Part shown: positions 41,617 to 43,061 of the stretch, one piece after another
Layout of the letters: every line of letters starts with the position of its first letter
How positions within the stretch are numbered: the first letter of the stretch is position 1
NCBI GenBank assembly: GCA_029974925.1
Contig: JARKQH010000325.1
Location: 1 to 45,506, forward strand
Reading direction: 5' to 3'
Origin: Verrucomicrobiota bacterium
GTDB taxonomy: Bacteria > Verrucomicrobiota > Verrucomicrobiia > Limisphaerales > UBA8199
DNA length: 45,506 nucleotides
Notes under the pieces: model-generated
What the model was told of the DNA's origin: nothing
Database searches by the model: none
What the model saw: only the letters and a program-made list of their open reading frames with translations
Program-made: the position numbers and the translations under genes

Positions 41617-42624
41617 TCAGGTTTTGGGAGATTGCGCCTCAACCGCTTCTCCGGTGGTGGGCCTTTTTTCAAGGTAATGTCCAAACCGCCGGAATTTCTC
41701 GTAACGCTGTTTGAGCCGCTCTGCTGGTGACCAGGCCAGAATCTCCTCCAAGTGCTTTAGCAGGGCGGCCTTCAGGGTTTCGGCACAAGTTTCCGGGTCT
41801 GTATGCGCTCCGCCCAGCGGTTCCGGAACCACTTCGTCCACCAACCCAAGCGCCAAGAGGTCGCGCGCGGTGATTTTCAGCGCTTGGGCCGCTTTCGCAG
41901 CCGCGGCACGGTCCTTCCACAAAATCGCGGCACAACCCTCCGGACTGATGACCGAGTAGTAGGCGTTCTCGAGAATGAGCACCCGGTTGGCCACTCCGAT
42001 ACCCAGCGCCCCCCCCGACCCCCCTTCGCCGATCACGGCCGCTATAATCGGAACCTCCAGCAACATCATCTCCCGCAGATTCACCGCGATCGCCTCGGCA
42101 ATGTGCCGCTCCTCGGCCCCAATGCCGGGATAAGCCCCAGCCGTGTCTATCAATGAAATGATCGGAAGCCCGAATTTGTTAGCCAACTTCATCAGGCGCA
42201 ACGCCTTGCGGTAGCCCTCTGGATGGGCCGAACCGAAGTTGCGCAGGATGTTCTCCTTCGTGTCGCGCCCCTTCTGGGTGCCAATTACCATCACTTTGTG
42301 CGGCCCAAGGCAGGCGAAACCCCCAACCACTGCCCGGTCCTCGGCAAAGAGCCGGTCCCCATGCAATTCCGAAAAGTCGCTGAAGGCATGACGAATATAA
42401 TCCAGCGTGAAGGGCCGCTTCGGATGCCGTGCTATCTTGATCCGGTCCCATGCGCTCAGGTTCAGGAAGATCTGCCGCTTGGTTTCCTCCAGCTTCTTCT
42501 CGATCAAGGCCACTTCCTCTGCAAAACTGATGTCCAGCGAGTGAGCTTCCGGGTGTTTCTTCAACTCCGCGAGCTTGTTCTGCAGCTCTATGATTGGCTT
42601 CTCGAAGTCGAGATGATGTTTCAT
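41617..42624 (-). CDS. accA: Acetyl-CoA carboxylase carboxyltransferase subunit alpha
   Basis: IARHPKRPFTLDYI, GDRLFAEDRAVVGGFA, GAYPGIGAEERHIAEAIAVNLREMM, GEGGSGGALGIGVANRVLILENAYYSVISPEGCAAILWKD. Confidence 0.96.
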   Translation of the reverse strand: MKHHLDFEKPIIELQNKLAELKKHPEAHSLDISFAEEVALIEKKLEETKRQIFLNLSAWDRIKIARHPKRPFTLDYIRHAFSDFSELHGDRLFAEDRAVVGGFACLGPHKVMVIGTQKGRDTKENILRNFGSAHPEGYRKALRLMKLANKFGLPIISLIDTAGAYPGIGAEERHIAEAIAVNLREMMLLEVPIIAAVIGEGGSGGALGIGVANRVLILENAYYSVISPEGCAAILWKDRAAAAKAAQALKITARDLLALGLVDEVVPEPLGGAHTDPETCAETLKAALLKHLEEILAWSPAERLKQRYEKFRRFGHYLEKRPTTGEAVEAQSPKT

Positions 42625-42752
42625 CGGCGCGGAGGGTAATCCCTAACCCCAGGAGGCGCAACGCTCAATTGGGCGTCGGTACTGGTGCTGCCCAGATGGC
42701 ACGCCAGCGAAACCACTTCCCCCAGCACGTCCACGTAATTGAGTACAAACAA

Positions 42753-42776
42753 AGAGCCGGACTTGCGTCCGGCTCT
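42753..42776 (-). terminator. Rho-independent-like terminator, minus strand
   Basis: Minus strand AGAGCCGGAC-GCAA-GUCCGGCUCU (10-bp perfect stem, GCAA tetraloop) followed by UUUGUUUG. Confidence 0.7.
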
Positions 42777-43061
42777 AGTGGTGACGAGGTTTGTACGCCT
42801 TCACCCAGGCGCTCAGAAGGGTAATGCGGCCAACTATTTACTCGCTGTTCGAACCGCATTACAAGCAAAACCTCTATACTAACCCTAAACGAACAGCGAA
42901 ATCTTCTTCACTCGTCACTGCTTTGGACTTCTTTGGCGAGTGAATTGTTCAAAACAACCTGCATTTCAAACAACACCTTTCGCCCTTAGGCGACTTCCCT
43001 TGCGACCTCACTTCTTGTCGCTACCCAGCTTCAAAATGTCATTTCTGGGCAACCACGTCAA
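42753..43061 (-). ncRNA. Candidate structured RNA with closing helix, H-type pseudoknot and 3' terminator; class unassigned
   Basis: Closing helix 43051-43060/42782-42791 (UGACG-U-GGUU/AACC-U-CGUCA). Hairpins 43024-43028/43045-43049, 43002-43006/43017-43021, 42980-42984/42989-42993, 42937-42944/42907-42914 and 42796-42800/42807-42811. Pseudoknot stems 42890-42899/42842-42851 (10 bp) and 42854-42862/42821-42829 (9 bp). Terminator 42753-42776. No convincing ORF. Confidence 0.55.

Follow-up and report, generated by a model that had tools for sequence, protein, structure and literature searches.

A predicted stand-alone RNA with two covarying pseudoknots in the bacterial order Limisphaerales

A putative RNA gene between a histidine kinase gene and accA

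The window (the whole stretch of DNA that was analysed, 45,506 nt) carries on its minus strand a histidine kinase gene with Reg_prop, Y_Y_Y, HisKA_3 and HATPase domains, followed by a gap and then by accA. An earlier note on this DNA had described the gap as AT-richer than its surroundings, and this is the case: its GC content falls to ~45-50% at the lowest, compared to 55-65% in most flanking windows. As judged from sequence comparison, we conclude that a stand-alone gene for a noncoding RNA occupies positions 42917-42745 of the minus strand, and that Rfam does not include its class. The features that delimit it are as follows.

42947-42952, minus strand: -35 element TTGAAC, with TT before it; exact in 87 of 117 homologue upstream regions
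42924-42929, minus strand: -10-like element AGTCCA, 17 nt past the -35; resembles the RpoE/ECF -10 (GTCCAA / TCTANA), with an RTCTNA/GTCCAA column pattern across homologues
42745-42917, minus strand: predicted transcript of ~173 nt (variable 5' leader, conserved core, terminator), its 5' end placed from the promoter
42745-42776, minus strand: intrinsic terminator, the 10-bp GCAA-capped hairpin of the earlier note (42776-42753) plus a U-rich tail; 98.5% paired, two-sided changes in 8/8 outer pairs, present in homologues
41617-42624, minus strand: accA, a neighbour outside the RNA (Pfam ACCA, E=8.7e-140); downstream in 62/119 loci

The limits of the gene come from conservation. Covariance models R1 and R2 both place the conserved core at 42900-42745 of the minus strand. 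A DNA search of 97 genomes, the window's own included, gave matches in 45, nearly all at query positions 206-368 (42905-42743); most members of the same family show 93-96% identity, and more distant genomes about 80%. Once the matches are oriented, the conserved stretch opens with TTTGAAC, breaks at a variable spacer and leader, restarts at CGCTG and ends with the terminator; of the 5' domain proposed earlier (42925-43061), relatives conserve nothing beyond the promoter. Since conservation runs only from promoter to terminator, and both the promoter-like element and the terminator stand in the alignments, the locus looks like a stand-alone unit.

These limits alter the earlier picture, in which a domain of 279-309 nt was proposed; the actual unit measures ~170 nt (about 42917-42745). 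The helix thought to close this domain (43060-43051 with 42791-42782) forms nine of its ten pairs, with one U-U, and it competes with the conserved strands P3' (42792-42786) and P5' (42784-42780). Moreover, the 5' arm of this helix is located before the conserved promoter, in a part that shows no sequence conservation among relatives, and the additional hairpins at 42925-43060 fall in the same unconserved region, outside the RNA. The outer 279-nt domain, with its closing helix and upstream hairpins, was therefore rejected. The RNA had also been placed downstream of a sensor kinase: the kinase gene is there, but its presence is incidental, because most relatives carry a pgl-like (6-phosphogluconolactonase) gene in this position.

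Fold, covariation and comparison with known RNA families

The RNA core consists of five helices and two pseudoknots, one formed by P1 and P2 and the other by P4, the loop of which pairs as P5. The four strands of the first pseudoknot were found exactly where the earlier note had put them, and are perfectly complementary (UCGCUGUUCG, 42899-42890, with CGAACAGCGA, 42851-42842; GUAAUGCGG, 42862-42854, with CCGCAUUAC, 42829-42821); P3, P4, P5 and hence the second pseudoknot, as well as the promoter, are additions to it. From 5' to 3' the strand order is P1-P3-P2-P1'-P2'-P4-P5-P4'-P3'-P5'-terminator, so that P1/P2, P1/P3, P4/P5 and P3/P5 are interleaved.

42890-42899, minus strand: P1 5' strand UCGCUGUUCG; two-sided changes in 10/10 pairs, 93% of cells paired (61 sequences)
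42875-42889, minus strand: joining strand UUUAGGGUUAGUAUA, consensus UUUAGGGUUGGCAKA; nearly invariant in the alignments
42868-42874, minus strand: P3 5' strand GAGGUUU; two-sided changes in 6/7 pairs, 42869-42791 being the top mutual-information pair
42854-42862, minus strand: P2 5' strand GUAAUGCGG; two-sided changes in 8/9 pairs, 97.6% paired
42842-42851, minus strand: P1 3' strand CGAACAGCGA, in the P2 loop (pseudoknot 1); P1 pairs are among the top unsupervised mutual-information pairs
42830-42835, minus strand: conserved loop AGUUGG between P1' and P2', from the alignments; also in the phage copy
42821-42829, minus strand: P2 3' strand CCGCAUUAC; covariation (61 sequences)
42813-42820, minus strand: conserved joining strand CCUUCUGA between P2' and P4, from the alignments; also in the phage copy
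42795-42812, minus strand: P4 hairpin GCGCCU...AGGCGU, 6 bp; 99.3% paired, two-sided changes in 3/5 pairs, sixth pair (42807-42800) from mutual information
42801-42805, minus strand: P5 5' strand GGUGA in the P4 loop (pseudoknot 2); 99% paired, two-sided changes in 4/5 pairs
42786-42792, minus strand: P3 3' strand AAACCUC; covariation and mutual information
42780-42784, minus strand: P5 3' strand UCACC, directly before the terminator; covariation

In the single sequence, a perfect pseudoknot of 10 and 9 bp within 150 nt is unlikely to arise by chance (2 of 3000 dinucleotide-preserving shuffles of the 538-nt gap contained one), yet this is not decisive alone, and it is the homologues that decide. 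Both stems of the pseudoknot proposed earlier covary, with two-sided changes in all of P1 and in all but one pair of P2. Across alignment A4, which holds 61 diverse homologues, 96.3% of the pair cells are paired and two-sided changes affect 40 of 45 pairs (357 cells). The covariation score of 0.433 compares to 0.220 in shuffled alignments, with none of 500 shuffles reaching 0.433, and the signal was lost when the partner columns were slid (score at most 0.122). A second alignment, A1 (30 sequences), supports P1, P2, P3, P4, P5 and the terminator; here 98.2% of the cells are paired, 22 pairs show two-sided changes and 0/500 shuffles match any of the measures. When mutual information was scanned free of any structure, in 125 sequences with an effective number of 41, 14 of the 15 highest-ranking pairs belonged to the model, and the one exception lengthens P4 by a single pair. 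RNAalifold recovered P2, P3, P4 and the terminator, though its output cannot express pseudoknots. Compensatory changes were found in every helix, pseudoknots included, as in a structured noncoding RNA.

The claim that this RNA belongs to no assigned class has also stood. At the gathering threshold, Rfam 15 gave no match in the window and none in 20 homologous loci. The best permissive match, to the alphaproteobacterial sRNA BjrC1505 (RF02356), scored 20.3 bits (E=0.16) against a gathering score of 50 and came mostly from the terminator hairpin; the two folds differ. Orphan structured RNA classes that covary, are highly conserved and have no assigned function offer a general parallel (e.g. PMC2864571, PMC6429828), but the present RNA is matched by no Rfam 15 family and is essentially confined to the Limisphaerales. 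Among the papers that could be searched, none was relevant to the RNA itself or to RNAs of Limisphaerales or Pedosphaera. The RNA class is new in sequence and fold, a claim of novelty that concerns the class and leaves its mechanism aside. The motifs of a 2017 survey of 224 candidate RNAs are reportedly in Rfam.

A size near that of 6S RNA, and a single copy in most genomes, might suggest a diverged housekeeping RNA (6S, tmRNA, RNase P or SRP RNA). However, as the earlier note had judged from its features, it is none of these, since each is encoded elsewhere in the same genome, above the cut-off. The 6S RNA (RF00013) lies at G000:C405 (71.4 bits), and the locus has no RF00013 match; 6S is likewise ~170-190 nt long and stand-alone, but folds as one long hairpin opened by a central bubble, not as a double pseudoknot. 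Pseudoknots are also found in tmRNA, but ARAGORN and RF00023 found no tmRNA tRNA-like domain at the locus. RF00010 (RNase P RNA) matches this genome at C108 and C214 only, and RF00169 (SRP RNA) at C366, neither matching at the locus. Together with the lack of Rfam matches at the locus and its homologues, this refutes the housekeeping reading, to which we assign next to no probability. Note that two RNase P RNA genes above the cut-off occur in the window's own assembly (G000:C108:10728-11098 and C214:4254-4711; 304.8 and 211.7 bits); given the 4.4% contamination of this assembly, one of them may be foreign.

Promoter, distribution and gene neighbourhood

The arrangement TTGAAC-N16/19-(R)TC precedes the RNA in 90/119 loci, compared to 34 of 5388 control windows (0.6%). 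Among the loci that are unlinked to pgl, zwf or accA, it is present in 21/42, so that some of the extra copies are without it. RpoE promoters of Shewanella, Pseudomonas and E. coli read GAACTT-16/17-TCCAAA (PMC4336711), to which GAAC-N18-GTCCAA in the window is comparable. This likeness and the frequency of the motif make it likely that transcription is under ECF/RpoE-type control.

Of 294 Limisphaerales genomes, 144 carry the RNA according to model R1, which found it in none of the 393 other genomes of the phylum-wide sample. With R2 it was present in 47 of the 69 genomes of the order that are at least 95% complete, G068 being a marginal case at 26.9 bits. The share of the order's genomes that carry it thus lies between about half and two thirds. 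R2 also returned one convincing copy elsewhere in the class, in a draft genome of 72% completeness (G830, 90 bits); weak R2 matches of 26-30 bits outside the order were taken as noise. When 85,488 species genomes were scanned with a pattern, 82 stretches emerged, labelled Limisphaerales, Pedosphaera, Limisphaera or Verrucomicrobia (subdivision 3) bar a few, and these few labels look wrong. The current models probably miss part of the family. Two diverged relatives, with recognisable P4/P5, are found in G040 (L279:3964-4120, minus strand; 60 bits), in which, as read by eye, P1 is rewritten as CGCCACCC/GGGTGGCG and the promoter is kept, and in G020 (L240:1182-1333, plus strand; 37 bits).

Many nearly complete genomes of the order lack the RNA, single-contig ones included (G082, G107), and so it is not indispensable. 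An unfiltered search for decayed copies upstream of accA in RNA-lacking genomes (22 loci) gave only a contig-edge copy in G009, and in G031 (L261) and G082 (L262) pgl and accA are adjacent, with the RNA missing between them. Within one order, the RNA is mainly inherited vertically; it has been lost in places, one genus has additional copies of it, and a phage carries a homologue.

The usual position of the RNA is between pgl and accA. A pgl- or zwf-like gene lies 5' of it in 58/119 loci (by a rough end-motif test), and accA lies 3' in 62/119, other neighbours occupying the remaining loci; in distant families pgl-RNA is retained without accA (L219, L230, L232, L236). The pgl-RNA-accA arrangement looks like an ancestral synteny. 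Genomes of genus g52 carry 2-5 copies of the RNA, and in this genus a triple array (L156, 9609-10259, minus strand) and a double array (L157, 8743-9138, minus strand) both lie between glutathione peroxidase and hydrolase genes. The accA-less loci, the several copies per genome and the tandem arrays argue for action in trans.

The same data bear on a cis-acting leader of accA, a riboswitch or attenuator with the hairpin as expression platform. In 62/119 loci accA does start on the same strand, ~200 nt past the point where the RNA core begins. A cis-acting riboswitch or attenuator would, however, be expected to keep a constant gene, or class of genes, downstream in its transcript, and many loci retain the RNA where accA is missing, among them those of distant families and the tandem copies. 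Inspection of the alignments by eye revealed no conserved strand further upstream that could pair with the terminator arm; the terminator is variable, the core fixed. The accA leader was rejected as a general explanation on account of the accA-less loci and tandem copies, and we consider it very improbable; the synteny leaves room for some local role.

Phage copies and proposed function

A tailed phage carries a diverged copy of the RNA, complete with a terminator (L155:7888-8037, minus strand, IMGVR_UViG_3300047547_000443; 76.6 bits), between the head-morphogenesis and prohead protease genes of a terminase-portal-protease-capsid operon. Compared to the bacterial RNA, compensating changes have altered its helices P1 (GCACGGG/CCCGUGC), P3 (GGCUGUG/CACAGUC), P2 and P5 (GCGAC/GUCGU), P1 and P5 being read by eye, while the loops match the consensus, with GUUUAGGGUUGGC, AAGUUGGCC, CCUUCUGAGCGCC and AAGGCGUAU kept. 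The loops therefore appear to be selected apart from the helices, and this copy is the strongest sign that the joining loops are themselves functional. Since it lies inside an operon and no TTGAAC promoter was found immediately upstream, the phage RNA must be made differently.

Could the RNA then derive from a phage or mobile element, as a decoy or in packaging or counter-defence, and have been kept by some host genomes? Its patchy presence, the tandem and extra copies, the copy within the head operon and a second one on a viral-listed contig, near a transposase and an integrase-like gene, are compatible with such an origin. We nevertheless judge it improbable: one phage copy only is clear, 50,697 phage and 72,556 plasmid records gave no match, further pattern scans for viral copies gave none confirmed by covariance models, and the pgl-RNA-accA position is stable across many families, which indicates mostly vertical inheritance. 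The second copy (L177:8089-8244, plus strand, IMGVR_UViG_3300014199_000367) is of the bacterial type, and this region may be the host flank of a prophage.

Our best reading, a little on the probable side, is that of a trans-acting RNA driven by an ECF promoter, the folded core of which binds a protein or a ligand. An ECF/RpoE-type sigma factor would start transcription near 42917, and the transcript would end at the terminator, at ~42745. It would then fold compactly, with UUUAGGGUUGGCA, AGUUGG and CCUUCUGA packing against P1/P2 to create a binding, or perhaps active, surface. Rather than serving as a leader that controls accA, the RNA would act in trans; most likely it would be a regulator that works together with a protein, or a ligand, during envelope or oxidative stress.

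Second in our ranking comes a base-pairing stress sRNA, similar to the RpoE-dependent MicA and RybB of enterobacteria, in which the conserved unpaired strands would pair with mRNAs and the pseudoknots would only protect. Both are short stand-alone genes with an ECF-like GAAC...GTC promoter and an intrinsic terminator, and the conserved single-stranded stretches and the changes in copy number also agree with it. However, the Limisphaerales RNA has joining loops that are long and invariant, and two pseudoknots that covary. Its conservation, unlike that of a short seed, takes in all of the 130-nt fold as well as three joining regions, and both pseudoknots are under selection; we consider base pairing as its main mode unlikely. 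We know of no sequence relation between the MicA/RybB class and this RNA.

Where an RNA class combines several covarying pseudoknots with invariant loops, it has often proved to be a ribozyme, a riboswitch or a core RNP component. The compact double pseudoknot and the invariant joining strands resemble compact catalytic RNAs, so that a small ribozyme, self-cleaving or otherwise catalytic, might be considered. This has a small chance, because the RNA has a promoter and a terminator of its own, no product that it might process is obvious, and no known ribozyme family matches it; we rank it after the base-pairing sRNA and ahead of the mobile-element RNA and, lastly, the accA leader. More tentatively, and with considerable doubt, this RNA might be a new RNA machine of the Limisphaerales, a double pseudoknot that serves an ECF-controlled stress response as a dedicated RNP or as a catalyst, and which at least one tailed phage would have taken into its head-gene operon, keeping the loops and rewriting the helices. 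A new RNA class present in about half of the sampled genomes of a large, almost uncultured order, and in a phage, provides a concrete, testable entry point.

In its strict form, TTGAAC-N16/18-RTCTNA, the promoter motif occurs at 11 places in the window's own genome (e.g. L268 and L272), compared to one for the reversed control, a surplus that agrees with the ECF reading of the promoter. These places might form an ECF regulon, but their number is too small to claim one. Some of them lie just upstream of open reading frames with signal-peptide-like starts, apparently encoding exported proteins.
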